From assembly GCA_018241725.1 (NCBI GenBank), contig JAFEDI010000067.1, positions 1-64,000 on the forward strand: DNA of 64,000 nt. The letters are read 5' to 3'. The notes below the pieces were generated by a model, which saw only the letters and a list, made by a program, of their open reading frames with translations, made no database searches and was not told where the DNA came from. The position numbers and the translations under genes are program-made. This document shows positions 30,754-64,000 of this stretch, piece after piece. Source of the DNA: Pseudomonadota bacterium. Lineage in GTDB: Bacteria; Pseudomonadota; Gammaproteobacteria; Burkholderiales; Rhodocyclaceae. The first letter of the stretch is position 1, and each line of letters opens with the position of its first letter.

Positions 30754-33567
30754 CTATCGAGTCGCGAGTTGTGCCGTTTCCAGCGCACTCATCAACGCAC
30801 TAACGCTGGCCTGGTCCGCCAGATTGATAGAACTCGGCCGACCATTGATGTTGAGTTCCAATCGATACACGCCCAGCACCTGGCTGGAGCTTCCACTCCC
30901 TGGGGTTGCGGCCGAGACAGTACTACTCTTCTGATTCTCGGCAGCCACGAGGCGGCGGGCCTCGGCCACGGCCTTTTGCTCATACTCACGTGTAACGGCA
31001 GCGTAGTCGGACGTGTTGAACAGCAGGCCCTGAGAGCCGCCCGCCCGGCCAGCCGCATCCACGTTGGCCTGCTGCACGTAGTAGCCGTAGATCTCCCGCA
31101 ATTTGGCCGCCTCGTCGCGACTGAGTCCATTCTGGGCGGCGATCCAGTCGGTGTTGACGGTGGAACTGGTGACCGTCCGATTCGTGAAGCCACTGGGCAG
31201 CTTGTCGTTGCCGTTGATGTAGTCCTCGATCTCGCGGCTGGAGTAGCCCATCGACTGCATTTGCTGGGGCGTGACGCCAGCTTTGCGCAGATCGTCGTAT
31301 GTGCCGTTGCCGGTAGACTGGTTGCCGAAGGTGTCGCCCAGGCCAGCCCCTTTGAGGGACTGCAGACGCTGCTGCAGCGCTTCAGCCTCGGTACGTGTTG
31401 AACGAATGGCACCGGCCGCATCATTCATGTTTTTGCGGATACGGTTTCCGGCATCATCTGAAGCGCCGCCAATCTTGACGATCGATTTCCCCGTCTCGTC
31501 GGCCTCTATGCGCACACCGCGCAATGCGGCTTCGCTCTTGATGGACTCCGATGCCACCCCACCGTTGGCTGCAATGGCCTTTTCCGCATAGATCTTGAAC
31601 GCTTGGGTCAGCGTGTCTGCCGTTGCCGTGCCGTCCGACTTGATCGCTTCGTAATGGCGCTTGAACTCCTGCGCCTTGCTCTCCAGATCGGCCTTGCTGG
31701 CCAGCCCCATCTGCTGGTAAGCCGCCTTGATGTCGTCGGCGGTGAACTTGGCTTCCGAGCGCAACTCGCCCATGGCCTTCTTGATTTCCAGCAGCTTCTC
31801 GGCCGCGGCCTGGGTATTGCCGGCATCGACAAGGCCGTCGTACGCCTTCTTGAGTGCCTCGACCGACTGCCTGGCTTGCTCGGCGGCGATCTTTTGCTGG
31901 TCGGCAGATTGCTGCGCCTTGCTGCCCAGGGTTTCAACCTGTGTGGCAGCCGCGCCCAGTTCCTTGGCTGCTGCGCTGGCGCTAGCGCCGACACCATCAA
32001 TCGCTTGTTTGGCGGCGGTGGTCGGTGCAGTCAGCGCAGCCCACCCTTCACGGGCATTTTCCGCGCCGGTCACCGCACCTTCGAACGCCGCTTTGGCCTT
32101 CTGGCCATAGGCCTCGGCAACGCTGGCTGCGGCGCCAGCCTCAACGCGCAGATCGGCGGCGGCCCGCTTGAACCCCTCCGAAATGCTGCCGAAGGTAATC
32201 TTCGCCATGCCTTCGGAGATCGCCGCGAGGTCCTGCAGGATGCCAAAGACGATGGCGCTGAACACTTCGCCCAGCTTGTAGACGCTAGCCATCAGCACGC
32301 CCGTGCCGGCCGACATCACACCCCATGCAGTCTTGACGATGTCGCCGGCGTTGGTGGCTTTCTGACCTAAGTCGTCGAAGAACGCGCCGATCTTGGTCGC
32401 TGCGTCCTGCAGCTTGGCGGTCAGCGCAGCGGGATCAACTTCGGCAGCGAACTTGCGTACCCACTCGATACCGGACGAAAACGCGGAGCGCAGGGCATCG
32501 CCGAACTTACCGATGGTGCCGTTGGCGACGCCTTCACGCAGGCCCGCAGTCAGATCCTTCACCGCCTGGGTGATCACCGGCAGAACGGGCTCGCCGAGCT
32601 TGATCTTGAGCGAATCCCACGCACTCGATAGCCCATTCATGGCGCCATTGAGGTTGCCATTCATCGTGGCCGCGGTCTCGGCGGCAGAGCCCGCCGCACT
32701 GTCGAGCTGTGCCTTAAGGCCTTCCAGCGCCGGCATGCCCTGGTTGATCAGGCCACGCAGCGCCGGGCCCGCCTCGGTACCGACGGCCAGGATCGCCTTG
32801 CTGCCCTTATCACCTGAGGCGGCCAGCTGATGCAGCGCCTTGTCAAAGTCCGTCGTTGTGATCCCGAGGCTCACCAGCTCGGAGCGAAACTTGCTGGCCG
32901 GATCGAGGAACTGGCTCAGGATCGCATTGAGCGCCGTACCGGCGCGGCTCGCGTCGATGCCGCCATCCGCGAACTTGCCCAGGACGGCGACGGTTTGCTC
33001 CAAGGAGAGCTTCGCGGACCGCGCCGTCGGTGCCGTGTAGGACAGCGCCTCGGCGAGGCCCTTGACCGACGTGTTCGATGCGTTGGCGCCCTTGGCCAGC
33101 ACATCGGCGATGCGGCCAGTATCCTCCACAGCCACGCCCATCCCGGCGATGGTGCGGGTGACGATCTCGGCCGCATGCGCCAGATCAATGTCGCCGGCGG
33201 CGGCCAGCGCCAGCACGCCGGGCAGTGCGGCCATCGACTGGTTGGCATTGAGGCCTGCTTTCGCCAGGTTCTCCAACGCGCCGGCGGCCTGGACGGACGT
33301 ATAGACGGTGTTGGTGCCCGCATCCTCCGCAGCCTTCTTGAGCTGCGCCAGCTCTTCGCCAGCCGATCCCGTTGCCGCCTGGACGCGGCTCATCGCCGCC
33401 TCGAAGTTCGCCGCGCTCTTCACCGATCCGCTCAGGAAGTCGATGGTGAAGTAGCTGGCGATGGCAGCGGCCACCGCCGCCGCCTTCGCCTGCATGGAGC
33501 TGAGGACGCCCGATGCCTCGTCCTTGGCCGAAATGAGCAGCCGGAGCACCAGGTTCTTTTCAGCCAT
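30754..33567 (-). CDS. Phage tail tape measure protein
   Basis: A 937-residue protein with a TP901-type tape measure core at the N-terminus: FEAAMSRVQAATGSAGEELA, ALENLAKAGLNANQSMAALP, DIDLAHAAEIVTRTIAGMG and GGIDASRAGTALNAILSQF (about 50-210). Hydrophobic and Ala-rich helical segments follow, and then a long coiled-coil-like stretch (about 540-800). It would set tail length and form the tail lumen. Apart from a small gene and a Mor-like gene upstream it has no tail, head or lysis neighbours, so it is an orphan of a degraded or rearranged prophage. The reading frame itself is intact. Confidence 0.92.
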   Translation of the reverse strand: MAEKNLVLRLLISAKDEASGVLSSMQAKAAAVAAAIASYFTIDFLSGSVKSAANFEAAMSRVQAATGSAGEELAQLKKAAEDAGTNTVYTSVQAAGALENLAKAGLNANQSMAALPGVLALAAAGDIDLAHAAEIVTRTIAGMGVAVEDTGRIADVLAKGANASNTSVKGLAEALSYTAPTARSAKLSLEQTVAVLGKFADGGIDASRAGTALNAILSQFLDPASKFRSELVSLGITTTDFDKALHQLAASGDKGSKAILAVGTEAGPALRGLINQGMPALEGLKAQLDSAAGSAAETAATMNGNLNGAMNGLSSAWDSLKIKLGEPVLPVITQAVKDLTAGLREGVANGTIGKFGDALRSAFSSGIEWVRKFAAEVDPAALTAKLQDAATKIGAFFDDLGQKATNAGDIVKTAWGVMSAGTGVLMASVYKLGEVFSAIVFGILQDLAAISEGMAKITFGSISEGFKRAAADLRVEAGAAASVAEAYGQKAKAAFEGAVTGAENAREGWAALTAPTTAAKQAIDGVGASASAAAKELGAAATQVETLGSKAQQSADQQKIAAEQARQSVEALKKAYDGLVDAGNTQAAAEKLLEIKKAMGELRSEAKFTADDIKAAYQQMGLASKADLESKAQEFKRHYEAIKSDGTATADTLTQAFKIYAEKAIAANGGVASESIKSEAALRGVRIEADETGKSIVKIGGASDDAGNRIRKNMNDAAGAIRSTRTEAEALQQRLQSLKGAGLGDTFGNQSTGNGTYDDLRKAGVTPQQMQSMGYSSREIEDYINGNDKLPSGFTNRTVTSSTVNTDWIAAQNGLSRDEAAKLREIYGYYVQQANVDAAGRAGGSQGLLFNTSDYAAVTREYEQKAVAEARRLVAAENQKSSTVSAATPGSGSSSQVLGVYRLELNINGRPSSINLADQASVSALMSALETAQLATR

Positions 33568-33582
33568 GTCCGCGCCCTCCCG

Positions 33583-33831
33583 TTAATCTGCGGCGGTAGA
33601 GCGGTGACTCTCGCCGGCTACGTCGTCAACCTCGTGATGAACGTCGGCGACGGCCCTATCGAGCTCAGCCAGGGCTTCATCGATCAACGCCAACTCTCGT
33701 TCATGACCAGGCTGAAAATCGACCGTGGCTTCATTGAGCGACCAGGCGACGCTTTTGGCACACTGGACCTTGCCGAGCGCGAGGCGGCTCGCTTCAAGGG
33801 CGGTTCGGATTTTCTGCAGGTTCGCGCTCAT
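33583..33831 (-). CDS. Small phage-associated protein
   Basis: An 82-residue acidic protein (start MSANLQKIRTALEASRLALG, with AAAAGG upstream; a GTG at 33852 that overlaps the previous gene's stop is an alternative). It is mostly alpha-helical, with an acidic helix ALIDEALAELDRAVADVHHE. No family was recognised. It lies directly between the Mor-like gene and the tape measure gene with almost no spacing, as a tail chaperone or assembly protein might, but that role is only inferred. Confidence 0.6.
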   Translation of the reverse strand: MSANLQKIRTALEASRLALGKVQCAKSVAWSLNEATVDFQPGHERELALIDEALAELDRAVADVHHEVDDVAGESHRSTAAD

Positions 33832-33848
33832 GGGGAAACCGGTCCTTT

Positions 33849-34247
33849 TCACTTGGGCAGGGTGTTCACGATTCGCTCGATGCTTCGGTCCGACAGGCTG
33901 TATTCGCGGCTGAGGACGAACACGGCCTTTCGGGAAGACTGCCCGTCTTTCGACGTCAGCTCATCGAAGCGGGTGCGGATCTCGCGGTTTCGGGCTTCGC
34001 GAGCCGCAGCCACCTCGCTATTGAGATAGGCGGCCTCCCCGCCGAACTCGGCGACGACTTTCCGGGCCGCCTCCACGCCGATGGCGTCGGCGATCGGGAT
34101 GAAGGCCTGCGCCGCCTCGGTGCGCGGAATCCGCATACGGACGCCGCCAAAGGCAGAAACGAATTTATCGGCGAGGGCCGCTCCAATGAGGGCCGCCAGC
34201 CCGTCTCGTGTAAAGGAGACGCAGGCCTTTCTGATTTGCGCTTGCAT
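33849..34247 (-). CDS. Mor-family transcription activator-like protein
   Basis: A 132-residue protein (start MQAQIRKACVSF) with the Mor/C family pattern: a dimerisation region with AFGGVRMRIPRTEAA and VVAEFGGEAAYLN, a basic linker REARNREIRTRFD and a C-terminal HTH ending in SLSDRSIERIVNTLPK. In phage Mu, Mor switches on middle transcription. Here it precedes the small gene and tape measure gene on the minus strand. A second, distinct Mor-like gene lies at 57661. Confidence 0.8.
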   Translation of the reverse strand: MQAQIRKACVSFTRDGLAALIGAALADKFVSAFGGVRMRIPRTEAAQAFIPIADAIGVEAARKVVAEFGGEAAYLNSEVAAAREARNREIRTRFDELTSKDGQSSRKAVFVLSREYSLSDRSIERIVNTLPK

Positions 34248-34428
34248 CTGACCAACCCTAAAAATGCTGTGGGTGTGAGGTTGACGTCTTTCCGCACCCA
34301 GCGCCAAACCGACAGGCTTCGGCAGTCAGACCCAGCGGACGCTTTTGCCTCGCTCGGGGACGGTCCAATCTGGCGTGGCGCCGTCAGCATGAAACGCGGT
34401 TCATCGGTTCCGGGATAGGGGCGTTGTC

Positions 34429-35406
34429 GTGGAAAATACGGCCTCGCCCTACTCCTGCCGATGCGGCCCACCCATGACGCCCGAAGATCTCGTCCAGCAA
34501 CTCGAAGCCACCGGTGATTACAAGGTGCTGCGCCGCTTCGAGCCGCTCGATTGCTACGCCCCGCTCGATGATGTCGATCCCCAGCAGCTGCGGATCGCGA
34601 TGGTCATCGATACCGAGACCACCGGCTTCGAGAAGGACCGGGACAAGATCATCGACCTCGGCTACGTGCTGGCCGAGTTCAATCCGAAGACGGGCCTGAT
34701 TCACCGCATCGTCGAGCGGTACAGCGGCTTCGAGGATCCCGGTTTTCCGATCCCGCCGGAGATCACCGATATCACGGGCATCCAGGATGCCGACGTGGCG
34801 GGTCAGGCGCTGGACGATGCCCGGGTGGAAGCCGCGATTGGCCGGGCGGCCATCGTCATTGCTCACAACGCCTCCTTCGACCGGGGCTTCCTGGAGAGGC
34901 GTTTCCCGTCGTTCGCCAACAAGTGGTGGGCCTGCTCGTTGCGGGAGGCCCCGTGGTCAGAGATGAACACCGGGTCGTCCAAGCTTGAATGGCTGGCCTA
35001 CAAGCTGGGGGGCGTGTTTTACGGTGCACACCGGGCCTTGATCGACGCGGAGGTGCTGCTGTTTCTCCTCACCCAGGCGGGACCGAACGGCCGCACGATC
35101 CTCTCCCACATTCTCGAAAGCAGTGGCCGGCGAACCTACTGCGTGTGGGCCGAGGGCGCGCCCTTCGAGATGAAGGACATCCTCAAGAAGGACAAGGGCT
35201 ATGCCTGGAGCGACGGCGCCAGTCCCGAGAAGCCCATCAAGGCCTGGTACAAGGCCGGGGTCATCGATCTGGAGGCGGAGCTCCGGATGCTGGGCACGGA
35301 GATCTACGGTCGCTCGGCGCGGGTGACGGTGGATACGCTCACTGGCCGCGAGCGCTACACCGACCGTTACCAGGCTCGTCAGAAGATGGAGGTTGTAACG
35401 TCTTGA
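34429..35406 (+). CDS. DEDDh 3'-5' exonuclease (DnaQ-like)
   Basis: A protein of about 325 residues (GTG at 34429; ATG at 34474 is an alternative). The exonuclease motifs are all present: Exo I VIDTETTGFEKDRDKIIDLG (about 60-79), Exo II HNASFDRGFLE (about 146-156) and Exo III HRALIDAEVL with the catalytic His (about 202-211). The C-terminal third (about 240-325) has no recognised domain. The nuclease is free-standing, not a polymerase subunit. Its place in an accessory region suggests a role in phage or plasmid interference or DNA repair, which is not proven. Confidence 0.88.
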   Translation: MENTASPYSCRCGPPMTPEDLVQQLEATGDYKVLRRFEPLDCYAPLDDVDPQQLRIAMVIDTETTGFEKDRDKIIDLGYVLAEFNPKTGLIHRIVERYSGFEDPGFPIPPEITDITGIQDADVAGQALDDARVEAAIGRAAIVIAHNASFDRGFLERRFPSFANKWWACSLREAPWSEMNTGSSKLEWLAYKLGGVFYGAHRALIDAEVLLFLLTQAGPNGRTILSHILESSGRRTYCVWAEGAPFEMKDILKKDKGYAWSDGASPEKPIKAWYKAGVIDLEAELRMLGTEIYGRSARVTVDTLTGRERYTDRYQARQKMEVVTS

Positions 35407-35670
35407 GCGTTCGAGCCGGACGGTATGGACTGAACCCTCGTAACTGCCAATGGGAGTGTGTCCATGCCGATACGGCTGCGCGCCCTACCCCGGACATCTG
35501 AAGTAAATAATTCGGCGTGATTGCCTTCCTGAATGGCATTCGCTAGGATTGCCCTCGGAGTTTGGCATTCAAGCCCTCTGTTGTGCCAGTCGGCCTTTCA
35601 GCTGCTGGTTCCGCCCGGTGTCTTTTCAGGCTACGGCGGTCTTTCCCTTATTCATATGGAGAGGCCCGCT
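35407..35670. other. Intergenic stretch without a recognisable gene
   Basis: No ORF with a ribosome binding site was found. The last 20 bases before the next gene contain its GGAGAG site. Two partly similar stretches, TGGCATTCGCTAGGATTGCC and GTTTGGCATTCAAG, lie near 35532-35575 and may be promoter or relic sequence. Confidence 0.4.
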
Positions 35671-36042
35671 ATGGCCAAAAGTATCGCCCTCGCCCGTTCT
35701 TCTGCCTTTCGTGAGCAAGCTGGTCGCTGCATCTATTGCGGAGCGCCGATGTGGTCGCATTCGCCTCAAGAGTACGCCAAGGCACGTGGGATCAGCCTGG
35801 CGGATGCCCGTCGATTCCAAGCCACCGCCGAGCACCTTAAAGCTCGCAGCGAAGGTGGGAGCAACAGTCGGCGCAATATCGTGGCGGCCTGCTTTTTCTG
35901 CAACCAGAAACGGCACCGGCGCAAAGCGGCGCCGGCTCCCGACGCGTATCAAGCGTTGGTTCAGGGGCGCATTGCGCATGGGAAATGGCACCCTGCTCAC
36001 CTTCACGGCAAGGTGCTGAGCCAAGCACACCTGAAAACCTAA
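35671..36042 (+). CDS. HNH endonuclease
   Basis: A 123-residue HNH nuclease. The start MAKSIALARSSAFREQ follows GGAGAG. A zinc-knuckle pair is formed by CIYCGAP (about 19-25) and CFFCNQKRH (about 76-84). The HNH core is in ATAEHLKARSEGGSNSRRN, with His, Asn and the distal Cys/His. The gene is intact, unlike the two decayed copies of it that follow at 36841 and 37238. Its target is unknown; small solitary HNH proteins of this type occur in phages and mobile islands. Confidence 0.82.
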   Translation: MAKSIALARSSAFREQAGRCIYCGAPMWSHSPQEYAKARGISLADARRFQATAEHLKARSEGGSNSRRNIVAACFFCNQKRHRRKAAPAPDAYQALVQGRIAHGKWHPAHLHGKVLSQAHLKT

Positions 36043-36164
36043 AGTGTGCCGCAAAACAAGGCCAAGCCTTGGTTGAAATCGGCCACGCGGTCCAGCGTGA
36101 CCGAAGATCTGCTTCCTGCCCTAAGATACGATCACTTCGCCCCAACCCTACCTTTGGTCTTCCC

Positions 36165-36818: not shown

Positions 36819-36840
36819 TCATTCAAAAATCCAAGGCAAC

Positions 36841-38759: not shown

Positions 38760-40244
38760 ATGCTCAACCGTCTTATTGCATTTTCTCTGCTGTCTGTCTG
38801 CGCAGGTCTGGCCCCTGCGCAGACAGACAGCACGCCAACTCCAGGCATGCTGCGCGCGCGCAAGCTCACGTCTGAGGAAGCCAAGAACGCCGTACTGCAG
38901 ACAAGGAGCGACACGGTGGCTCAGCTCCGACGCATGGGCGGCAGGTTCATCCAAGAGGCCAAGAAGCTGGGAACTCTGGCACCCAGTGTGTTCTTGGAGC
39001 GTATGGCCATTGCACCTCCGGTGGGGCCATCTACCATTGCACCGGTGAAGTTGGGCACACCTCCGCCAACCCCGTCCATCAACACATACAAAGGCAATGG
39101 GGCGACCACAGCGCATCCTGCAGTAGCGTTGCTGCTCGCGCGCGAGGACGGCAGCGATCTCTACCGAGCGGCTTGTTCGGGCACTTTGATCCGTCAGAAC
39201 GTTGTGCTGACGGCAGCCCACTGCATGTGCTATAGCGCCTACCCGCAGGACAACCCAGACAACGGCGCTCAGTGCGTAAACGGTGCGCCAGGCAAGCCGA
39301 AGTCCCCCATGGTCAAGCCCGACCGCTGGAAGGTGTTCTTCCAGCATGCGGGCCTGAGGGACGTCAAGCAGGTCATCATCAATGAGCGGTACACTTTCAG
39401 CGGTGCAGCCATACGCGACGACTTGGCCTTACTGGTGCTCGACAAGCCGGTCACCGAGATCGACCCGCCAACCTTTCCGGGGGCGGTGGAGGCAGTAACC
39501 TCCTTCGGCCCCGGCGAAATTGTCGGCTACGGCTACAGTGCAATGCAGGGCGACAACGGTCTTGCACTGCCGCAGCTCTTGCAGCCCGGCATCAAAGGGG
39601 TCGGGCGGGTGACGTCGGGCATCTGCACTAACCTGACCTACCTAGAGCCGGCAGCGAGCCTGTGCTCAACCTATGCCCCCATGCAGAACGGATCGGCAGC
39701 AACGGTCTGCGAGGGCGACTCCGGTGGGCCTTTATGGCAACCCACTGGAGCAGGTACCGAGATCGGCGTGACATCGGGCATCAGCACAACCGACTGCACG
39801 ATCGTCCCCACCATCGGCTTCCAGATGGCCACAACCTTTCGTCGCCACAACACTTGGATCAGTGAGCAGCTCAATTCCGTCCCTGGCTCCGATGTGAAAG
39901 GCATCCTACCCGCCTTTGGCGATAACCTAATTCCTGTAGCCGACCGACGCAACATCGGCACCTTCAACGAAGCCGGCAACTACAAGTCAGGGCCTATCAC
40001 CAGCGAGGCGGAGAGCAATATCTTGGCCACTATGAATTCCTCGGGCAACATCCTTAGCTTTTCCGTTGTCGAAGTAGGCGGCAAGGTGCTCTGTAAGGGC
40101 ATCGCAGGCCTGAGTGCCAACGTTCCCAATGTCAATCTCTGCTGGGCCACGGTGAAGGTGGGCACCAAGTACCAGATCGTCGCGAAGGGAGAAAGCAGCC
40201 AATTCCTTCAATACGTGGTCTCTAGGCGCCCCATGACAAAGTGA
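38760..40244 (+). CDS. Secreted trypsin-like serine protease
   Basis: A 494-residue S1-family protease. The start follows GGAGGAGGG. The signal peptide is MLNRLIAFSLLSVCAGLAPAQ. The catalytic triad is visible: His in VVLTAAHCMC (about 152-161), Asp in RDDLALLVLDKP (about 220-231) and Ser in CEGDSGGPLWQPTG (about 318-331). A pro-region of about 110 residues precedes the protease domain, and about 130 residues of unknown fold follow it. It should act outside the cytoplasm. It belongs to an exported-protein cluster with the lipoprotein upstream and an endonuclease I gene downstream. Confidence 0.88.
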   Translation: MLNRLIAFSLLSVCAGLAPAQTDSTPTPGMLRARKLTSEEAKNAVLQTRSDTVAQLRRMGGRFIQEAKKLGTLAPSVFLERMAIAPPVGPSTIAPVKLGTPPPTPSINTYKGNGATTAHPAVALLLAREDGSDLYRAACSGTLIRQNVVLTAAHCMCYSAYPQDNPDNGAQCVNGAPGKPKSPMVKPDRWKVFFQHAGLRDVKQVIINERYTFSGAAIRDDLALLVLDKPVTEIDPPTFPGAVEAVTSFGPGEIVGYGYSAMQGDNGLALPQLLQPGIKGVGRVTSGICTNLTYLEPAASLCSTYAPMQNGSAATVCEGDSGGPLWQPTGAGTEIGVTSGISTTDCTIVPTIGFQMATTFRRHNTWISEQLNSVPGSDVKGILPAFGDNLIPVADRRNIGTFNEAGNYKSGPITSEAESNILATMNSSGNILSFSVVEVGGKVLCKGIAGLSANVPNVNLCWATVKVGTKYQIVAKGESSQFLQYVVSRRPMTK

Positions 40245-43341: not shown

Positions 43342-43451
43342 ACCCTGTGCGCCCCCATCGATGCCTCTACTCGCCAATGCAGATCGGCACACAGGGTATT
43401 CCGTTATCGTAATTAGCTCAATGCGAGTGACCGCACCACATACTTCATCTG

Positions 43452-44956: not shown

Positions 44957-44966
44957 AGGTAAGGCC

Positions 44967-46701: not shown

Positions 46702-46737
46702 GACGCCCGATTGCGCCTGTTGCACGAACCACGCTTC

Positions 46738-54273: not shown

Positions 54274-56013
54274 ATGCGAATAATATACACTGGCCGAGAC
54301 ATCAAGAAGCAAAAAGCTATTCTTGCCGAGCACCAAGACGTGATCATCCTGCTGTACGACAATTGGGATGACTACAGCTACAAGACATCCTTCCCAACCG
54401 AGTGTCTGCTAAACGGCAACAACGTCGACATCGGCACCATCAAAATCCTGGTCGAAGACAAGAAAACAACCTTTGCCTACTTAGACTCTCTGGTTGCCGG
54501 CGGATGGGATGGGATGTTCCCGATCCCGAACACGCAATATGTCTCCGTTCCTGCAGCGCTTACGTTCTACGAGCAGCTCGAGGGCCATCTTGGGTTGGAC
54601 GCGGCGATTGCCGCAGCCCAGTTACTGCGCGATGCAAGTTACCTAACGAAGCTCTTAGACGACAACAACGCTCTGCGCCTGCTCAACACTGATGGGTTCC
54701 GCCATTCACTCCAACGCGAGCGCGGCGCGATCAAGGCCTACCTGGACGGCTGGAAGCTCTTCGGACAACGTAGCATCACAATTGGAAACCAGACCTTCAC
54801 TTTCCGCACGCCGTCAGGCGAATCCACATCAATTGATCTGCGTTTCAACTCCCCAACCCCTTTGCCTCATGATATCAATGTCTTAATTGGCCCCAATGGC
54901 GTAGGAAAATCTCAGTTATTGCTGCAAATTGTCAATAATTGGTTGCAGCTACCCCCCTCTGGTCAGGATCAATTCGGCTTCACAGAGCGCCCTAACCTGA
55001 ATCAGTTGGTGGTTGTGTCCTATAGCCCGTTTGAATTGTTTCCAGTTGACACCAGTGAGGACCTGGACCGAAAGGACCATGATGTCTACCGCTATTTCGG
55101 TTTCCGTGGGCGGATGAAGGCCTTAACCGATAGCAAGCGAGGTTCCGAACGCGTGACACTGTCGCGTGACTTCCCCAAAACTAATGCTGCACGTTCACTG
55201 CTAGCCTGCTTGGAAGACGATAAGAAGTACGGAGCAATTAAGGAATGGTCTAGCAAGCTGAGGACGATGGAGGGTGTGCTTAAGCTCGCATTCTCTTTCG
55301 ATCGAGCTGCCGTGGCGGTAGACAGTAACGCCAACGTTGATTGCTTCTTCACCACGCAGGAATTACTCACGGAGTCATATCTGGAAGGTGAGTTCAGCGA
55401 CGAAGATTTCCACTCACAAAGCCAGCTATACGTGCCCATCGCCTCTGACCGCGTGCAGGAACTCAAAGTTGACGAATTGAGGAAACACGTGCAAGACCAG
55501 CTCGGAGTCATGTTCCTGAAGGACGGTAAACCCATCCACCTCAGTTCTGGTCAGCGGCTCTTCTCGTACATTGTCATCAACATATTGGGGGCTATACGAC
55601 GCAACAGCCTCATCCTGGTCGACGAACCAGAATTGTTCCTGCATCCCACGCTAGAGATTACGTTCATTCGCATGCTAAAGGAGATTCTTGCCAACTACAG
55701 CTCCAAGGCACTCCTAGCTACGCATTCCCTAGTCACGGTACGCGAGATACCGCGCGAGTGCGTGCACGTTTTTGAAGAATCCAACGAGGGGCTCAAGATC
55801 AAGCCCCCCCCATTCGAGACCTTCGGTGGTGATGTACAACGTATTTCCTCGTACGTTTTCGGCGACAAATCGTTGTCCAAGCCTTACGAAGACTGGCTTA
55901 AAAAGCAATTAGCGCAATATGGATCAGCCGAGCAGCTAATTTCTGCCCTGGGCAAGAACATCAACGAAGAGCTAATTGTCCAAATCCACGCAATGGAGGC
56001 CGGCCAATGGTAG
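54274..56013 (+). CDS. ptuA: Septu-like defence ATPase (PtuA-like)
   Basis: A 579-residue AAA/ABC-type ATPase. Walker A is GPNGVGKSQLL (about 207-217), the ABC signature-like motif is HLSSGQRLFSYIV (about 421-433), Walker B is LILVDEPELFLHPT (about 447-460) and the H-loop is LLATHSLVTVRE (about 480-491). This is the OLD/RecF-type arrangement of PtuA. About 190 residues precede the ATPase and may sense a trigger. It overlaps the HNH gene in ATGGTAG, so the two are translationally coupled. PtuA and PtuB together act against phage in Septu systems; identity is by architecture. Confidence 0.85.
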   Translation: MRIIYTGRDIKKQKAILAEHQDVIILLYDNWDDYSYKTSFPTECLLNGNNVDIGTIKILVEDKKTTFAYLDSLVAGGWDGMFPIPNTQYVSVPAALTFYEQLEGHLGLDAAIAAAQLLRDASYLTKLLDDNNALRLLNTDGFRHSLQRERGAIKAYLDGWKLFGQRSITIGNQTFTFRTPSGESTSIDLRFNSPTPLPHDINVLIGPNGVGKSQLLLQIVNNWLQLPPSGQDQFGFTERPNLNQLVVVSYSPFELFPVDTSEDLDRKDHDVYRYFGFRGRMKALTDSKRGSERVTLSRDFPKTNAARSLLACLEDDKKYGAIKEWSSKLRTMEGVLKLAFSFDRAAVAVDSNANVDCFFTTQELLTESYLEGEFSDEDFHSQSQLYVPIASDRVQELKVDELRKHVQDQLGVMFLKDGKPIHLSSGQRLFSYIVINILGAIRRNSLILVDEPELFLHPTLEITFIRMLKEILANYSSKALLATHSLVTVREIPRECVHVFEESNEGLKIKPPPFETFGGDVQRISSYVFGDKSLSKPYEDWLKKQLAQYGSAEQLISALGKNINEELIVQIHAMEAGQW

Positions 56014-56849
56014 TTCGCTTGATTTGCCCCGACGCAGACCAGAATAAGTTCATCGACGAGGTAGTCGAACAGCGTCAGAACGGTCGAAACGCCAAGTTCT
56101 TCACCAAGATAAAAGACGACTGGAAAGCTCGGGTCAAAGCCTACCTTCGCGAAAACGGTGACCCAGCAATTATCAAGCCTTGGCAAGAAGCGCTATCGCA
56201 CGCGACAACATTTAAGAACCTATATCTGAGTCCAGACGAAAACTCGGTTCAGCATCCCGTACTCACGAACCTACGCTCACGCGAGTTGCAACTCTGTCCG
56301 GCATGCGGTGAAGACGGCACGCCAAACACACTTGATCACTATCTGCCCAAGCAGACGTATCCTGAGTTCTCGATCACAGCCCACAACCTTTTCCCGATGT
56401 GCGACATCTGCCAAGGTGAAAAGCTCACGGAAACGGTCAACTCAGCAAACGAGCGTCTGTTCGTGCATCCCTACTTCGACCAGTTCATTGAAGTTCAGGT
56501 TCTGCATCTTCAGATCAGACCACCCTATGAAGCACCAGAAAACATACAGCTAACGCCAGACTCTGGACTGGATCCCGCACAATCCGCTTTAGTAGCACGC
56601 CACCTGGTTCACCTCGCGATCCCAAAGCGCTACTACCACTTCTTCAAGGATGAGTACCTGAGATTGCTGCGACTGGTTCGTACAATGCGCCAGCAAGACC
56701 TAAACATAACCACTATCTTAGAAGTTTTTAGAGAAAAAGCACGAGACAAGTCCATCAACTCATGGGGGCACATCTTTTATACCGGAGTGCTTTCCAATCC
56801 TGGCCTGATGGACTATCTGAAGCAGGGTCAATTGCCAGAGAAGCTGTAG
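56007..56849 (+). CDS. ptuB: Septu-like HNH endonuclease (PtuB-like)
   Basis: A 280-residue HNH nuclease. Zinc and catalytic positions are in LCPACGEDGTPNTLDHYLPK (about 95-114; CxxC then DHYLPK with the catalytic His) and the second CxxC LFPMCDICQGEK (about 128-139). This is the PtuB pattern. The rest is helical (VARHLVHLAIPKRYYHFFKD). Coupled start within the ptuA stop. In Septu the ATPase restrains the nuclease until phage infection; the same is expected here. Confidence 0.85.
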   Translation: MVVRLICPDADQNKFIDEVVEQRQNGRNAKFFTKIKDDWKARVKAYLRENGDPAIIKPWQEALSHATTFKNLYLSPDENSVQHPVLTNLRSRELQLCPACGEDGTPNTLDHYLPKQTYPEFSITAHNLFPMCDICQGEKLTETVNSANERLFVHPYFDQFIEVQVLHLQIRPPYEAPENIQLTPDSGLDPAQSALVARHLVHLAIPKRYYHFFKDEYLRLLRLVRTMRQQDLNITTILEVFREKARDKSINSWGHIFYTGVLSNPGLMDYLKQGQLPEKL

Positions 56850-57370: not shown

Positions 57371-57660
57371 CTTAAACCTCAAATAGCTCTGCCAAAGAAG
57401 GGCGCGGAAGCGCCCCCGCGCAACTTGATTTTGATAACTCCTCTGTTACTTCGAGGGTAGCAGTAGCTCCGCCCTTTCGGTATAACGCCCTCAACGCGGC
57501 AGGCAAAGACTCATTCTGTAGAGCGAGTGGCTGGCTATATTTAGCACCGATGCCACTTAGCGCTCCCAATTTGGCCTTGGGGCGGAACCACTTCCGCCGT
57601 GACATGATCCGGCCACCTGAGCAACCCTAGTTGCTCAGCCCTTTCCCGGATCTCTTCACC
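57371..57660. other. Gap with a GC hairpin and a repeated 37-bp element
   Basis: A hairpin GGGCGC-GGAA-GCGCCC at 57400-57415 may end the preceding operon. A 37-bp stretch at about 57587-57623 (CGGAACCACTTCCGCCGTGA ... GATCCGGCCACCTG) recurs with about six differences at 60262-60298. A 77-codon minus-strand frame at 57372-57605 has no supporting signal. Confidence 0.5.
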
Positions 57661-58053
57661 ATGAATCACCATGAGACTGCGCCGACCTCCACGTCTGTGC
57701 ATACCCTCGACCCCCGCTACCTGCCGGCCGTGTTCCAGCCCTTCATCCGCAAGGTCGGCCCGGCACCCACGATCACGCTGATTGAACACTACGGCGGAAC
57801 CCGCGTGCTGATCCCCTATCACGCCGATCCATCCCACTCGCTGGCCCAGCTTCTGGGCTTTGAAGCCTTCGAGCGACTCGTCCAGGAGTTCGGGGGAGAC
57901 ACCATTGACGTTCCCCTCGGCACCATCGCCAAGCGGGCCACCCGTAACGCACGGATCAAGGCCGGTCGAGCGGCAGGGGAAACCACGGCTTCATTGGCTC
58001 GGCGCTTCCATCTCACCGAACGCGCGATCCGGCTGATCGTGAATACCAAGTAA
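57661..58053 (+). CDS. Mor-family transcription activator-like protein
   Basis: A 130-residue protein of the Mu Mor/C family. The dimer region shows EHYGGTRVLIPYHADPSH and RLVQEFGGDTIDVPLGTIA, then a basic linker RATRNARIKAGRAA and a C-terminal HTH TTASLARRFHLTERAIRLIV (about 107-126). It is only distantly like the copy at 33849. It is on the plus strand, opposite to the Mu-like early operon at 60.4-64 kb, whereas in Mu the mor gene follows that operon in the same direction, so this part is rearranged or foreign. Confidence 0.82.
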   Translation: MNHHETAPTSTSVHTLDPRYLPAVFQPFIRKVGPAPTITLIEHYGGTRVLIPYHADPSHSLAQLLGFEAFERLVQEFGGDTIDVPLGTIAKRATRNARIKAGRAAGETTASLARRFHLTERAIRLIVNTK

Positions 58054-58381: not shown

Positions 58382-58981
58382 ATGCCCCTACCGCTACCTT
58401 CTTTTTTCTTCCCTCAACTCACTAGCGTGCGTTTAGAGACCATCTCTGAGTGGCTTTTAGACGAGTTCTACGCCACGGAAGAAGATCTGGATCGACCAAC
58501 AGACAACGGATATACCCGTGGTTGCGCAACCTTCGGGCGCCAGCGGAACCGTATTATTTCTGAAGTCCGGTCCGGACGTCATAGCTGGCTCGGCCTGCTG
58601 AACAGCTCAAACGATCTCGTCTTCACTGTCGGTGATGTCCCTTGCCGATTCAGCAATGATGATCCCGCCAATCCCTCCAAAGATGCAGTCCTGATCGCTA
58701 ATCGGCACCAGACGAGCTTTCTGGAGTTCGCGATCGAGGGGGAGCCTGGTCGCTTCTGCTTCATCATTGACCGCGGTCACGACGGCGCCGCAGAACCGCG
58801 TGTCGTTCTATTGGGATTCAGCCCTGACGGCGCTGTTGCATGCCGCTGGGAATCCGGTACTGTTCGCGTCCTTCGACTGGCGGACCAGCAAGCACTTGCA
58901 CCGTCTGTGGAGGTCTCGAAGCCTCAAGTTGCGCCCAAGCGCCGCGACGAAGGGGATGCCGCCGCCGAAGCTGGACGATGA
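58382..58981 (+). CDS. Unknown protein coupled to an HTH/ImmA-type peptidase
   Basis: A 199-residue protein of no recognised family. The first three quarters look globular (TISEWLLDEFYATEEDLDRP, FTVGDVPCRFSNDDP, RFCFIIDRGHDGAAEPRVVL), whereas the last 30 residues are charged and flexible. Its stop overlaps the next start (ATGA), so both proteins are made together. In paired arrangements with HTH/ImmA proteins the partner is often a toxin or a stress-linked effector. That is only inference here. Confidence 0.68.
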   Translation: MPLPLPSFFFPQLTSVRLETISEWLLDEFYATEEDLDRPTDNGYTRGCATFGRQRNRIISEVRSGRHSWLGLLNSSNDLVFTVGDVPCRFSNDDPANPSKDAVLIANRHQTSFLEFAIEGEPGRFCFIIDRGHDGAAEPRVVLLGFSPDGAVACRWESGTVRVLRLADQQALAPSVEVSKPQVAPKRRDEGDAAAEAGR

Positions 58982-60096
58982 GCAGGTTTATTGGCTCCAA
59001 CCTTCGACTCATCCGCCTCTTTCAAGATTTGTCACTCACGGACCTTGGAGAGAAAGCGGGTGTATCGAAACAGTTTCTGAGCCGTGTGGAGAATGGTGCG
59101 GAATCGGTGTCGGCCTCTTTGGAAGAGGCCCTTGCCGAAACGTTGGGAGTGCTGCCCGAGTTTTTCTACACAGCAGACCCCCATCCAATTGAAGACGAGC
59201 AGTGCCATTTTCGGCGTCAGCTGACAACAAAGGTGGCACTGCGCCAGGTTGCCCGTGCTCGTGGTGAGATGCTTAAACGACTTGTTTCTGTTCTTGATGA
59301 ACATGTCGAGTTACCTCCATACCGAGTCGGCGAGGCTGACCCGGCTTCTCCTGAATCGATCGAACGTGCTGCCGAAGCATTCCGTTCCATTTTTTCCCTT
59401 GGCCTGGGACCGCTAAGTAACGTCACCCGTATTGCTGAAAACGCGGGATCCGTTGTGATGCGGATCCCCGGCTTGGCCCCAGAAATCGACGCGGTCTCGT
59501 TTGCCACCAAGCGTCCATTGATCGCGTTAAATGGCGACGGTCGCTCTGCGTGCCGAGAGCGGTTTGGTATCGCGCACGAACTAGGGCACTTTTCACTACA
59601 CATTGGCGTTTTGACGGGGGACCGCCTGACCGAAACACAAGCGAACAGGTTTGCTAGCGCACTGCTGCTGCCAAGGAGCACCTTCGCCAATGAATGCCGA
59701 CTAGCGACCAGAGGAACCCGTCTTAGCTGGTCAGGGTTGGCAGAACTCAAGCTGCGCTGGGGCGTATCGAAAGCGGCAATCCTCTTCCGCGGGCGACAGT
59801 TGGGCGTTATCTCCGAAGATCAAGCGCGGTCTGGCTACATCGGACTGAACCGCCATGGAGAGGCCCTCCGTGAAGCTGAGGACGATCAAATCCAGCGTGA
59901 AGAGCCAGAGGTCATTAGTGAGAGTCTTAAGGTGATGAAGGAACATTTTGGCGTTCCTCCATCGGCCGTGGCACGAGCAATGCGTGTCCAGCCAACGCTC
60001 ATGCAAAAGTTGCTTTCATTGCAGCCAACGGACCACGGCGACTTATCTGTTCGGACTAGCGCACCGAAAAGTCCGCAGTTAAGAATCGTCTCGTAG
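58978..60096 (+). CDS. XRE-type HTH protein with ImmA/IrrE-type metallopeptidase domain
   Basis: A 372-residue protein. The N-terminal XRE HTH reads LIRLFQDLSLTDLGEKAGVS and KQFLSRVENGAESVSASLEE (about 11-50). The central domain contains the zinc peptidase motif HELGHFSLHIG (about 200-210) and the downstream ANRFASALLLPRSTF typical of ImmA/IrrE (COG2856) proteins. The last 80 residues are of unknown role. Such proteins control mobile elements or toxin-antitoxin pairs by cutting or binding a repressor. The operator-like direct repeats lie just upstream of this two-gene unit. Confidence 0.88.
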   Translation: MSRFIGSNLRLIRLFQDLSLTDLGEKAGVSKQFLSRVENGAESVSASLEEALAETLGVLPEFFYTADPHPIEDEQCHFRRQLTTKVALRQVARARGEMLKRLVSVLDEHVELPPYRVGEADPASPESIERAAEAFRSIFSLGLGPLSNVTRIAENAGSVVMRIPGLAPEIDAVSFATKRPLIALNGDGRSACRERFGIAHELGHFSLHIGVLTGDRLTETQANRFASALLLPRSTFANECRLATRGTRLSWSGLAELKLRWGVSKAAILFRGRQLGVISEDQARSGYIGLNRHGEALREAEDDQIQREEPEVISESLKVMKEHFGVPPSAVARAMRVQPTLMQKLLSLQPTDHGDLSVRTSAPKSPQLRIVS

Positions 60097-60715: not shown

Positions 60716-61162
60716 TCAGTCCCGCACCATCGACACGACCGAACTCTTCTCGCTGGCCGAGGCTGCAAACGCGACATCGATGGCCCGGCCGAGCCGGGCA
60801 TTGACCACGCGCAGGAGCGCCGCCAGGTCGCTGCCCTTAAGGCCCGGGAGGCCCTCCTCCTGGCCGGCGCAGTCCGCCAGACCCGCCACGGCACGGAAGG
60901 CCGCGTGCGCTTCCTGGGCTTCGTCGAGCACGCTGACAAAGCCGGCGCGCTCCTGCTTCTTGCCGTTGATCTGCTGCGCCGTGGCCAGAAGGCCCGACAG
61001 CTCGCCGAGCTTCGAGTAGTAAGCAGCATCCATGTCGTCTTGCTTGCGGGTCATGCGCGTAGTCCTTCCGTTGCGGCGCCCTGCGGCCCCCTTGATCTGA
61101 TGAGGTAAAGCGTACCAATTCCGAATATTTTCCAAAGCGATTTCTTTGGAGGGAGTCCTCAT
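60716..61162 (-). CDS. Small protein of the Mu-like early operon
   Basis: A 148-residue protein if the ATG at 61162 is used. This ATG overlaps the gemA stop (ATGA), the usual coupling in this operon. An internal ATG at 61054 (MTRKQDDMDAAYYSKL) is the alternative. The N-terminal MRTPSKEIALENIRNWYALP is basic and may bind nucleic acid. The C-terminal part is Ala-rich and helical. No function is assigned. Confidence 0.65.
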   Translation of the reverse strand: MRTPSKEIALENIRNWYALPHQIKGAAGRRNGRTTRMTRKQDDMDAAYYSKLGELSGLLATAQQINGKKQERAGFVSVLDEAQEAHAAFRAVAGLADCAGQEEGLPGLKGSDLAALLRVVNARLGRAIDVAFAASASEKSSVVSMVRD

Positions 61163-61635
61163 GGCGTGCCCCTTTGATCCCGGTCCGTCGTCGGTGCCGC
61201 GTCGGCCTGGGCCTTGCGGGTCCGATCCTGGTGCCATTTCTCAAGCCCGATGAGCACACTTGCCATCGACGCTTTGGTCAGGAAGCGCGGGCTGTCCACC
61301 TTCACGATCCGTTTGACGAAGGTGGCGAAGGCTTCGCCGTCGAGCCCGTCATCCAGGCCGATCTTGCGGGCGAGCGCCCGCGCCGCCTTCCACTGGGCAT
61401 CGGTCGGGCGCTGGCTGCCGCGGCCGGCGATCACCTTGGCCTTGGCCGGGGCGTCCTCGAGGAGGCCTTCGGCACGCAGCCCGGCGACCAGCCGGGCCAG
61501 GTCCTTGTCGTTGAGGTCACTGCTGCTGCGCTTGCCCGTGCGTTTCTGCAGCCACGCCCGGTAGGTCTCGTCGTCCATGCCCAGGCGGGCCTTGGCGATG
61601 TGCACCATCGCGATGAGTGCGCGTCGTGTCGTCAT
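61159..61635 (-). CDS. gemA: GemA-like Mu-phage regulatory protein (DUF1018)
   Basis: A 158-residue protein of the Mu gp16/GemA family. The N-terminal part RALIAMVHIAKARLGMDDET with YRAWLQKRTGKRSSSDLNDK is characteristic (about 5-45), and the C-terminal helical part carries RPTDAQWKAARALARKIGLD. In Mu, GemA affects host gene expression and supercoiling. The start at 61635 is right after GGGGCC and near the stop of the 61647 gene. Confidence 0.88.
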   Translation of the reverse strand: MTTRRALIAMVHIAKARLGMDDETYRAWLQKRTGKRSSSDLNDKDLARLVAGLRAEGLLEDAPAKAKVIAGRGSQRPTDAQWKAARALARKIGLDDGLDGEAFATFVKRIVKVDSPRFLTKASMASVLIGLEKWHQDRTRKAQADAAPTTDRDQRGTP

Positions 61636-61646
61636 GGCGGCCCCTT

Positions 61647-62093
61647 TTAGTGCGCGCGGCACGGATCGTCGGCACGCTGGGCATCGACGCCGGGGAACAG
61701 GGAGGCTTCCCACAGGCGCAGCATGCGCAGCCAGGTCGCAAGCAGGCCCGACTCCACGGCGCGCTGTAGCCCCTTGCGTTCGCAGTAGCAGGCAAAGCCG
61801 AAGAGCAGCCGGCTCAGTTCATCGCTGTCCAGGTCCAGAATCCCCTGGGTGGTCATCAGGGCCATCTGGACCACTTTGTCGTCCCGGGCCGGGGCGACAC
61901 GCACGTCGGCGAAAGCGTCGTAGACGTGCAGGGTCCGAACCACCGCGAACAGCTCCTCGTCGGAGCAGGCGGCGAGGCTGTCCCGATCGGCCACGTACTC
62001 CACGACGGTTTCGAGGGTCATCGTCCGGCCAGCGTGGTGGATGCGTTTCATCGCCAGCGGGATGAGTTGCAGCAAGGTCGTGCGGGGTTCCAT
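61647..62093 (-). CDS. Small protein between MuB-like ATPase and GemA
   Basis: A 148-residue protein starting MEPRTTLLQLIPLAMKRIHH. The ATG shares a base with the stop of the MuB-like gene (TAATG). It is helical with several Cys (AACSDEELF, GFACYCERKGL). No family was recognised. Position fits the early accessory genes of Mu-like phages. Confidence 0.7.
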   Translation of the reverse strand: MEPRTTLLQLIPLAMKRIHHAGRTMTLETVVEYVADRDSLAACSDEELFAVVRTLHVYDAFADVRVAPARDDKVVQMALMTTQGILDLDSDELSRLLFGFACYCERKGLQRAVESGLLATWLRMLRLWEASLFPGVDAQRADDPCRAH

Positions 62094-63094
62094 TAACCCA
62101 TCCTCCCGAACAGCTTGGCGGTCTCCAGGAAGTTCTCCGCCGTGACTTCCAGCCCCCGGGCGCGCAGCTCGGACAGGACCGTCTCCGCGCCCCGCAGCCC
62201 GCCATCCCGGCCGGGCTGGCCGACGACCAGCAGCACCACCTTCTTCAGGTTGCGGCCGGTAATGCCTTTGAAGTCCATCCAGGCGTCCACATCCGTATCG
62301 CTGTTGCCGTCGAGGGAGATGTGCTTGGTGCGGCTGGCCAGCGCGTCGTAGTCGCTGCGCTTGCCCCACACCGCCGCATGGAAGGACGGGTTGCCGATCA
62401 TCGCCACCGGAATGCCAGCCTGCTCGTGGATGTAGGACATGAAGCGCAGGCCCGTTCCCTTCTCGGTCGGGATGCCGCACTCGTCGGCGATCAGGAAATC
62501 GCCCGGCTTCAGAATGGTCAGGATGCGATCCAGCTTGCTGGCCACGTTGCCGCTGCTGATGCTGTAGGGCTCCAAGGCGCCCAGGATGGCATCGAGCACG
62601 CCGGTGTCGCCCTTGGTGCCCGGACCGAACTCGAACCACACGGCGCCGGGCTCGTTGGAGCGGCGCGGGTTGTCCCGGGCGTAGCGCCGGGCCGCGAAGG
62701 TCTTGCCGATCCCGTAAGTCGCCGTGATGGCCACCAGCGAGCGGGCCTTGTGGGCGGCGAACAGGGTTCCATAAACCCGCTCGAAGGTTTCGGTCTTGGC
62801 GTACTCGTCGAGGTTCAGCTGGCCGGTGGCATCCTCCTCGTCCGCCCACTTCTCCAGCGCCAGCAGATGGGGCTCGGCCCGCCCGGCGAACCAGTCGCCG
62901 AACTGGGGCGTGCCGGGGATGCGCATCTCCGAGAGCAGCTTCTCCAGTTGGGCCGTGTTGATGCCGCTCTCGCACTCGGCGCAGATCCGGGTGACCCGGA
63001 CACCCGCGGCGACGAAGGAGCCGATCCGATCGACGATGTTCTCGGCGCGGATTCGGTCGAGGGGGGCTTGCGTATCCGTTACTTTTTCCGTCAT
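62093..63094 (-). CDS. MuB-like transposition ATPase (AAA+)
   Basis: A 333-residue ATPase, start MTEKVTDTQAPLDR. The N-terminal region has an HTH-like stretch TRICAECESGINTAQLEKLL, then Walker A ITATYGIGKTFAARRYA (about 120-136) and Walker B DFLIADECGIPTEKG (about 190-204). It resembles MuB and related AAA ATPases that choose target DNA and activate the transposase. The next upstream gene encodes the transposase, as in Mu. Confidence 0.88.
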   Translation of the reverse strand: MTEKVTDTQAPLDRIRAENIVDRIGSFVAAGVRVTRICAECESGINTAQLEKLLSEMRIPGTPQFGDWFAGRAEPHLLALEKWADEEDATGQLNLDEYAKTETFERVYGTLFAAHKARSLVAITATYGIGKTFAARRYARDNPRRSNEPGAVWFEFGPGTKGDTGVLDAILGALEPYSISSGNVASKLDRILTILKPGDFLIADECGIPTEKGTGLRFMSYIHEQAGIPVAMIGNPSFHAAVWGKRSDYDALASRTKHISLDGNSDTDVDAWMDFKGITGRNLKKVVLLVVGQPGRDGGLRGAETVLSELRARGLEVTAENFLETAKLFGRMG

Positions 63095-63162
63095 GCTTTC
63101 TCTTCCTGATGTAGTTCGTGCCATTGGCGTGGCACGGTTGGAATCCGTTGAACAGGGGGCTG

Positions 63163-64000
63163 CTACCCCCCGTTCAACCTTCTCTTGCGTTCGGCGGCTT
63201 CCCGAACCTTCCGGCTTTCTTCCAGCGCGTCATCCGGCACAGCACTCATCCTCCGTACGGGTTGGGTCGTTTCCACCGGCTTTGCATCCAGAATCAGGTT
63301 CTTCTTGGCCTTTGCTGCGCGCTCGGCCTCCCGCTCCTTGAGGATCTCCTCGCGCGTCGGCGGCTTGTGGATCACGCCCTTGCCGTCCATCAGATCCCCG
63401 GCCCCGAGGCGCTCCACCGGGTTCGGATTGGGCTCGCTGAGCTGGCCCTGCAGCGCTTTCATCTCTTCGTTCATCCCGATCTGGCGCACCTTCGGAACAG
63501 CGTGTCCGCCCTCGGCCTGGCGCTCGTCGGCAAGCTGCTGGTGCACCCGGTTGTAGCGCTGCATTTCTTCAAGCATGTCCAGCTTCCCGACGCGCTTCTT
63601 CAGTGCCCGGAAGTGCCGGTTCTGCACACCCTCACGGCGTGCCGACTCGACAGCGCCGGCCGGGTCGAACATGCCGAACACGGGCCGCTCGTGAATCACG
63701 GCGTATTGCCCCACGCCAGGCAGCGCCCGGTCCCGGACCAGGATCACGGCGTTCGGCGCCCACTTGGCAAAGCGCACCGTGACCTTGCGGGTTGCGTAGG
63801 GAATCAGGGCATCGTCGTAGTACCAACGGCCGTCAAGCTGGATGCCGCCGCTGTGGACCTTCGGCTTCCGTTCCTCGGCGAAGGCCACACGGAAGACGAT
63901 CTCCGGTGCGAAGGTGACGGTGTAGCCATCCGGGACGATCTGCGCCTTCTGATTGGGCGTGAGGCCACCCAGAAAGCCCCGTTGCGGGGTGTTGTGGTAG
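63163..64000 (-). CDS. Mu-like transposase A, C-terminal part (cut by window edge)
   Basis: The last 278 or so codons of a transposase whose start is beyond 64000. The visible N-terminal edge YHNTPQRGFLGGLTPNQK is the end of a DDE integrase core. It is followed by the Mu transposase C-terminal beta-barrel region (GIQLDGRWYYDDALIPYATR, KVTVRFAKWAPNAVILVRD), and then a charged helical tail that in MuA interacts with MuB (REEILKEREAERAAKAKKNL). The frame is open to the window edge with no frameshift seen. Confidence 0.87.
   Translation of the reverse strand, partial: YHNTPQRGFLGGLTPNQKAQIVPDGYTVTFAPEIVFRVAFAEERKPKVHSGGIQLDGRWYYDDALIPYATRKVTVRFAKWAPNAVILVRDRALPGVGQYAVIHERPVFGMFDPAGAVESARREGVQNRHFRALKKRVGKLDMLEEMQRYNRVHQQLADERQAEGGHAVPKVRQIGMNEEMKALQGQLSEPNPNPVERLGAGDLMDGKGVIHKPPTREEILKEREAERAAKAKKNLILDAKPVETTQPVRRMSAVPDDALEESRKVREAAERKRRLNGG

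Follow-up and report, generated by a model that had tools for sequence, protein, structure and literature searches.

A probable Mu-type transposable element upstream of nrdJ in a Zoogloea-group genome, with exchangeable cargo, much of it defensive, that includes a type I-G CRISPR system

Our analysis indicates, with a probability that we put at roughly 70%, that a 37.7-kb segment of a Zoogloea-group genome is a single Mu-type transposable element, a degraded ("grounded") Mu-like prophage with exchangeable cargo, much of it defensive, and that the type I-G CRISPR system it carries serves defence and not targeting. The window, by which we mean the whole stretch of DNA analysed, comprises the first 64,000 nucleotides of contig C115 (C115:1-64,000) in a genome of 5.93 Mb and 151 contigs (G000); beyond it, the contig was read on to 126 kb. 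A preliminary description of the window had proposed a Mu-like transposon turned defence carrier at 30754..64000, and the genes named there were checked with hidden Markov models (HMMs) from Pfam, phrog and PADLOC. Probable ends, transposition core and cargo largely support that proposal. It is the span that changes: the element probably runs from a right end (RE) at 29,734 to a left end (LE) at 67,465, 37,732 bp in all, past the window edge. These ends enclose the whole of the span first proposed; ends around only the part from 57.6 to beyond 64 kb were not seen. In the reading we favour, both ends, the transposase gene A, the ATPase gene B, GemA and the early regulators would have been retained at the LE and a tape-measure/Mor block at the RE, and the middle, the expected place of the capsid genes and of most tail genes, would have been filled with exchangeable cargo: the type I-G system with its array, PDC-M01, RosmerTA and nucleases. 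A protein-based preference would select the site upstream of nrdJ, the gene for a class II ribonucleotide reductase.

The LE lies just upstream of nrdJ. About 260 bp leading up to ...CCCCCA are conserved, at roughly 69-76% identity, in our genome and in the Zoogloea relatives SB3 (L101), UWPOB (G010, locus L102) and STD2_9 (G004, locus L103), and in all four they are followed directly by species-specific host DNA of the nrdJ flank. The distance from the LE to a palindrome upstream of nrdJ differs (83 bp in our genome, 127 in SB3, 73 in UWPOB and 97 in STD2_9), and the end is thus joined to different bases, through separate insertions or adjacent deletions. Within the genus comparison set of 23 genomes, to which SB3 does not belong, LE DNA was matched in our genome, UWPOB and STD2_9, and at its nrdJ G021 retains a remnant of 57 bp. 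All genomes used are drafts.

The RE was recognized through STD2_9, whose 13.9-kb insert has both host flanks set by genome G022, with about 129 bp at the same place. Between host flank and tape-measure gene this insert shows the motifs TGAGAGCGCGAAAC and then GCAGAAATA, and the same 14-mer begins at 29,734 in our contig. The 14-mer occurs in three of the 23 genus genomes (ours, STD2_9 and G011), and in all of them tape-measure and Mor genes lie nearby; its reversed-word control gave two matches, both in G006, and a shared word of at least 14 nt was found in 17 of 2000 control pairs. The first gene inside the RE is the tape-measure gene in STD2_9 and G011 too. In G011 it is 90% identical to that of STD2_9 and is followed by the small gene and Mor, in that order; the same three follow the RE motif in STD2_9, with further genes between them. 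The left phage genes thus fit the same element family; proof that they belong to an unrelated prophage, which the preliminary description had named as refuting, did not appear.

The ends fit the TG...CA pattern, the RE starting with TG in three genomes and the LE ending with ...CA in four. Of what the preliminary description had expected at the borders, probable TG...CA termini could thus be located, but not an exact 5-bp duplication. Its comparison with empty sites likewise succeeded in part: the insert of STD2_9 stands against the short interval of G022, but our own site holds other DNA in G020. That genome, 96% identical over the nrdJ query, matches our contig up to 67,466 on the nrdJ side and up to 29,357 on the ars side, and in place of 29,357-67,466 it has a different stretch of 4.75 kb that contains a long open reading frame (ORF), nitrate reductase-type by the look of its sequence.

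Other candidate ends were rejected. The string CCAAC+TG, which would give an exact duplication, is present three times inside the island (38,280; 43,650; 65,103), where uniform base composition would give a 7-mer about 2.3 times in 38 kb. The intergenic copy at 43,650 was discarded, since the cupin/helix-turn-helix (HTH) and endonuclease I genes to its left lie with array or cas genes in UWPOB and G016. An LE-like 22-mer beside the RE (29,710-29,732) is suggestive of an older insertion and was not used, equally loose matches (8 mismatches) occurring 81 times in the contig. LE-like sequence sought at the far end gave nothing above control.

Read from right to left, the genes for a repressor, an HTH protein, A, B and GemA follow the order of a Mu-like phage early region (Table 1). 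The transposition module on the right, the Mor-like genes at 33.8 and 57.7 kb and the tape-measure gene on the left, all named in the preliminary description, were confirmed by HMM matches, A extending past the window. Mor1 and the tape-measure gene lie on the strand of A at the opposite end of the element, and Mor2 lies on the other strand beside RosmerTA. The frame of A is open, and inspection by eye places in it candidate DDE motifs that begin at residues 300, 373 and 452. Ratios of dN to dS were 0.20-0.30 for A in all six species pairs, 0.08-0.24 for B in five of six (the sixth being saturated) and 0.10-0.31 for GemA in the three of six pairs computed, the STD2_9 GemA piece, which had no continuous reading frame, being left out; those of nrdJ were 0.04-0.10 in all six. 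The dS of GemA between SB3 and UWPOB (0.027 vs 0.215) and of B between our element and SB3 (0.208 vs 0.323) lies below that of nrdJ, and the dS of B between our element and UWPOB (1.8 vs 0.36) above it, a mixture that points to exchange between lineages. The portal, terminase and head proteins of Mu (NC_000929) and JBD30 (JX434032) gave no tblastn match in the contig from 20 to 72 kb (E 1e-4). When a phage collection was searched with the DNA of 58-64 kb, one 54-bp piece was matched among the best 20 of 89 records; the collection gave no DNA match for the tape-measure region and no protein match for A. The same genome carries a further Mu-like prophage (C126:1-40000) with B, GemA, Mor and Mu-type terminase, portal and head proteins; its tape-measure protein is 48% like that of the window in the C-terminal part, and it is a possible helper or donor.

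Location at nrdJ recurs beyond the genus. A pattern-limited scan, built on an alignment of four A proteins and run over 84,980 species, each represented by one genome, yielded 72 A loci, many of them short or distant. nrdJ adjoins A in five, from three genera: the three Zoogloea relatives, UBA2346 (L106, G138) and Ca. Desulfobacillus denitrificans (L124, G032), the element being flipped relative to nrdJ in the last two. Locus L160, with a 43% reductase match near a distant A, was left out of this count. In the family set of 395 genomes, A of this element was found in 13, our own included, and among the ten further A-positive genomes nrdJ lies next to A only in UBA2346 and Desulfobacillus. On an A tree of 30 rows (our own A and 29 of the 72 loci, 30 having been picked and L133 left out for want of one open A) the nrdJ label is clustered, only 5 of 500 shuffles being as low. 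A comparison of eight relatives showed different DNA upstream of nrdJ in each, which marks this location as a general place of gene turnover.

The related elements of STD2_9, UBA2346 and Desulfobacillus are short, about 8 to 14 kb, and all three keep a head-maturation protease beside A, B, GemA and Mor. UBA2346 and Desulfobacillus show no match to another capsid gene; the STD2_9 insert, which carries A, B, GemA and Mor, also holds gp36, gp37 and a tape-measure gene. Inverted repeats suggest likely ends for the Desulfobacillus element (21 of 22 positions, the maximum of 60 shuffles being 16) and only weakly for that of UBA2346 (21 of 27, barely over the shuffled maximum of 20). Neither showed a convincing duplication, and a scan with the LE 22-mer was without a match in both.

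In three Zoogloea, ours, SB3 and UWPOB, the order at nrdJ is LE, A, B, GemA, a variable slot, csb2, cas7 and cas3. The I-G genes of SB3 and UWPOB lie on the GemA side and are 79-90% identical to ours at the protein level, cas3 of SB3 being cut by the locus end. What fills the slot between GemA and csb2 differs: PDC-M01 and RosmerTA in our element, a ShosT-like gene in SB3; three of the seven ORFs in the UWPOB slot were tested and had no PADLOC match. Endonuclease I lies beyond or next to the array in UWPOB, and in G016 beside the cupin/HTH gene and I-G cas genes. On contig C271 of G016 the I-G genes (csb2 92% identical), the cupin/HTH gene, endonuclease I and the terminal parts of Mor1 and the small gene stand in one row, without A; at its nrdJ, G016 has only the tail of endonuclease I and about 25 bp of LE-like sequence. 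Taken together, these pieces suggest that element parts once linked have broken apart.

The CRISPR system of the island is a type I-G set, with cas3g, csb1 (cas7g), csb2, a cas8g part and the array. As the preliminary description had stated, it is without adaptation genes, none being present among the neighbouring ORFs scanned; the sole Cas1 match of the genome lies on another contig, C42. Repeats are perfect beside cas3 and degenerate at the left, away from it. With no adaptation genes found in the locus and with decay in its distal repeats, the array seems to be ageing, although a Cas1 match exists elsewhere in the genome. Next to the 92%-identical I-G genes of G016:C271 there is a longer array built of repeats of this kind (97 repeat-half matches counted on one strand; 60 listed positions between cas3 and cupin/HTH). 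Cas3 has an open frame with HD, DEAH and Walker A motifs, and the effector looks, by its sequence, still able to cut.

Between guidance of transposition and defence, the preliminary description had preferred defence as the role of the CRISPR system; the Cas3 motifs support that choice, and neither the spacers tested nor any word of the island match the nrdJ target more closely than chance would allow. None of the 18 spacers matches the nrdJ flank, and island and target share no word longer than 11 nt, against a mean longest word of 13.7 in 100 control stretches; in UWPOB the longest measures 12 nt and lies within cas3, a figure without control. No csb2 match was found in the genomes of STD2_9, UBA2346 and Desulfobacillus, whose elements also sit at nrdJ (STD2_9 has a weak Cas1 match; the csb2 search there concerns type I-G, and other CRISPR types may occur). 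Since related elements without type I-G genes share this location, two other genera included, the type I-G system does not explain the site. Guidance is probably not its role, and defence is likelier. An RNA-guided type I-G counterpart of the known Mu-type CRISPR transposons CasMu-I and CasMu-V, which likewise unite MuA/B and a CRISPR effector in one element (described in part in PMC10910872), thus appears very improbable: the Cas3 motifs are present, the spacers give no sign of homing, and the contig holds a single Mu-transpos_C match, that is, no CasMuC-like second A by that model.

Several observations weigh against a single, mobile element. The identity of the RE rests on three sequences, and the gapped alignment with the RE of STD2_9 scores 17.0 at 29,734 but 17.5 at 28,667, in the ars region, the best score in a control stretch being 15.0. 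LE and RE showed no resemblance when compared. An exact 5-bp target duplication was not found, either in our element (left CCCAA, right CCAAC) or in the flanks of STD2_9 (CGTGC vs TCGTC); erosion may have removed it, or separate events may have produced the two ends, and we therefore claim a relic or derivative and not an intact Mu-like member, a single insertion being what we infer. In G011 an ORF judged by eye to be ada-like is located some 1 kb from the RE, and A was not found in that genome. The tape-measure protein is only 24% like that of STD2_9, over the C-terminal part, and its best family relative (51%) belongs to a prophage, G081:C382, without a match to Mu or JBD30 proteins. In eight of the ten further A-positive genomes, most of them fragmented assemblies, nrdJ is absent from the A contig, lies 588 kb off (G061) or is represented by weak reductase matches (G331). 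The nrdJ label requires three changes on the A tree and forms one clade in 0% of bootstrap trees; being clustered but not one clade, it indicates an association above chance in this tree neighbourhood. The I-G block of G016 lies on another contig, in a genome without an A match, and such cargo can thus live apart from A. Finally, the low dN/dS values may be a legacy of a former existence as a free phage, selection now and in the ancestral phage being inseparable in them.

Some of these points would be expected if a Mu-like prophage had died upstream of nrdJ and defence genes had then landed by unrelated routes, the ends being fossils of a unit that never moves whole. The turnover of DNA upstream of nrdJ, the LE remnants without an element in G021 (57 bp) and beside the endonuclease I tail in G016, the missing duplication and the I-G block without MuA all suit such accretion; the A and B frames, open and constrained in four species, and the order from cas genes to GemA kept in three do not, and the low dS of GemA and B in the two pairs given above suggests that core parts still spread, other pairs being more diverged than nrdJ. 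We regard it as unlikely, though deserving serious weight. Less probable in our judgement is a transposable phage satellite that has lost its virion genes but neither its ends nor its transposition functions, and that relies on a helper Mu-like phage for movement and packaging. Its length of 37.7 kb is near that of Mu (36.7 kb) and JBD30 (36.9 kb), and the host carries the C126 prophage with its terminase, portal, head and B genes; the protease kept in the three short kin is why we retain this role as a rival. Yet no packaging-hijack gene was recognized, our own copy has no protease match, and kin of about 8 to 14 kb are not phage sized. Little credit is due to the view that a non-Mu tail fragment (30.7-34.3 kb) and a Mu module (57.6-67.5 kb) are unrelated prophage remnants with a defence island between them: the best relative of the tape-measure gene would agree with it, but RE, tape-measure gene and Mor stand together in our genome, STD2_9 and G011, and the one STD2_9 insert unites that gene and Mor with A, B, GemA, gp36 and gp37. 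We thus return to the single degraded Mu-type element, in which both ends would come from one insertion, A and B would be able to move the unit and the cargo would move along with it, although the cargo may have accreted.

The remaining cargo is listed in Table 1. The DEDDh exonuclease, HNH and endonuclease I genes and the ParA/RelA-like pair reported in the preliminary description were recovered by HMM. Its Septu system is present as a Septu-like pair but is better filed as PDC-M01A/B, and its HTH/ImmA unit is, more exactly, the RosmerTA antitoxin RmrA, with RmrT adjacent. Local duplication and decay are visible at 35853-37435 (three partial copies of the HNH stretch, and a 98-bp piece of the neighbouring 217-aa gene present twice), and a 236-bp direct repeat (91%; 41148-41383 and 42160-42395) over the start region of endonuclease I represents a truncated second copy. 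The ParA-like and RelA/SpoT genes (43859-45647) form a two-gene unit beside the array, possibly an undescribed defence or toxin pair. Left of the element, an arsenic-type cluster (24664-28309; ArsA-like ATPase, SBF transporter, LMW phosphatase) is shared with G020 and absent from the stretch of G021 read.

Table 1. Features of the element and its nrdJ border, from the right end to the left end (coordinates on contig C115).
Feature	Position	Strand	Match or remark
Probable RE, TGAGAGCGCGAAAC..., further motif GCAGAAATA	29734..29800	+	shared 14-mer; ~65 bp alignable
ORF, 228 aa	29972..30658	+	no Pfam match
Tail tape measure	30754..33567	-	PF10145 4.3e-36; phrog_28420 5.3e-224; RE-proximal phage remnant
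Small gene, 89 aa, between tape measure and Mor1	33583..33852	-	no family match; first 66 aa 77% in G016:C271
Mor1, late activator family	33849..34307	-	HMM; relatives in STD2_9 and G011, its end in G016
DEDDh exonuclease	34429..35406	+	HMM
HNH nuclease	35533..36042	+	HMM; partial copies 36962-37080, 37270-37388
ORF, 393 aa	37538..38719	+	no Pfam or PADLOC match
Trypsin-like protease domain protein	38760..40244	+	HMM
Endonuclease I family	40561..41421	-	PF04231 2.9e-39
Cupin + HTH regulator	42349..43503	-	HMM
ParA-like ATPase	43859..44956	+	HMM
RelA/SpoT-domain protein	44967..45647	+	HMM
CRISPR array	45859..47640	+	36-bp repeat; spacers mostly 35-37 bp, 18 extracted
cas3g with C-terminal cas8g-like part	48002..51622	+	Cas3g 1.5e-163
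cas7g (csb1)	51292..52665	+	Cas7g 4.7e-34; true start probably further in, because the open frame overlaps cas3
cas5-6g (csb2)	52658..54055	+	Cas56g 4.1e-60
PDC-M01A, Septu-like ATPase (PtuA-like)	54274..56013	+	1.1e-245; best PtuA model 1.2e-42
PDC-M01B partner	56007..56849	+	5.8e-115
Mor2	57631..58053	+	HMM
RmrT, RosmerTA toxin	58382..58981	+	4e-40
RmrA, RosmerTA antitoxin, HTH + ImmA/IrrE	58840..60096	+	9.8e-116
GemA	61159..61713	-	phrog_286 1.3e-33
B, transposition ATPase	62093..63124	-	phrog_296 4.4e-15
A, Mu-type transposase, 786 aa	63,163-65,523 (window part 63163..64000)	-	PF09299; phrog_310 5.8e-45
HTH gene	65,484-65,975	-	beyond window
Repressor-like HTH, divergent	66,226-66,873	+	beyond window
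nrdJ	67,655-70,579	+	contig beyond window

Mu-type elements are usually held to be near-random in their insertion, and random insertion is stated for Mu-like prophages (PMC6379469, in part); the repeated location upstream of nrdJ differs from this and suggests site preference in a Mu-type lineage. With Mu and JBD30 the element shares the set of repressor, HTH, A, B, GemA and Mor genes, a length of about 37 kb and TG...CA ends; unlike them, it has lost the capsid and most tail genes and holds cargo instead. Grounded or cryptic prophages are hotspots of gene gain (PMC6379469, same passages), and like them it is a defective prophage serving as a landing pad for genes, with the difference that probable ends and a transposition module remain and that much of the cargo is defensive. 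Its core appears to be kept apart from a rotating defence cargo. As a possible, and tentative, extension, a Mu-type lineage of elements that are no longer autonomous phages may find the class II ribonucleotide reductase promoter region by protein in several genera and ship interchangeable defence cassettes, a nuclease-competent type I-G system among them, which would represent either a stage preceding CasMu-type capture or transposable satellites that depend on Mu-like phages.

Among CRISPR-bearing elements, CasMu-I (type I-A) and CasMu-V combine Mu transposases with nuclease-defective I-A or type V effectors, one CasMu-V having a homing spacer near its insertion (passages of PMC10910872). For Mu-like transposons, the pertinent passages of a 2024 review list I-A and V-F and those of a 2025 classification list I-A, with type I-G in a Mu element not mentioned in them (PMC11656645, PMC12669027); searches of titles and abstracts on Mu with CRISPR, defence, nrdJ or Zoogloea gave no type I-G Mu element or nrdJ site among the matches listed. 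As far as these passages go, the CRISPR systems of Mu-type elements have been thought of as transposition guides with a lost nuclease, whereas the effector described here looks able to cut. Tn7-like CRISPR-associated transposons (CASTs) and cargo-carrying Tn7 elements (PMC11656645, in part) resemble our element as site-preferring transposons with defence cargo; unlike them, it is of the MuA/MuB type, with no Tns/TniQ set found and the effector nuclease kept. The interference-defective effector of CasMu and CAST systems was not seen here, nor was a homing spacer near the insertion, such as one CasMu-V has; the element therefore works, in our reading, like a cargo-bearing Mu-type transposon or a grounded prophage. 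If A and B still work, one could test directly how the site is chosen, by protein or by chromatin, and how defence cargo passes into guided transposition. As in CasMu-I and CasMu-V, as far as their description was covered, a Mu-type A and B are joined to a CRISPR effector in one element with no TniQ match among the genes scanned; unlike those systems, the element has type I-G, a cas3 kept with its motifs, no second A or homing spacer found, phage remnant genes, other defence cargo and a locale at nrdJ common to kin without I-G.

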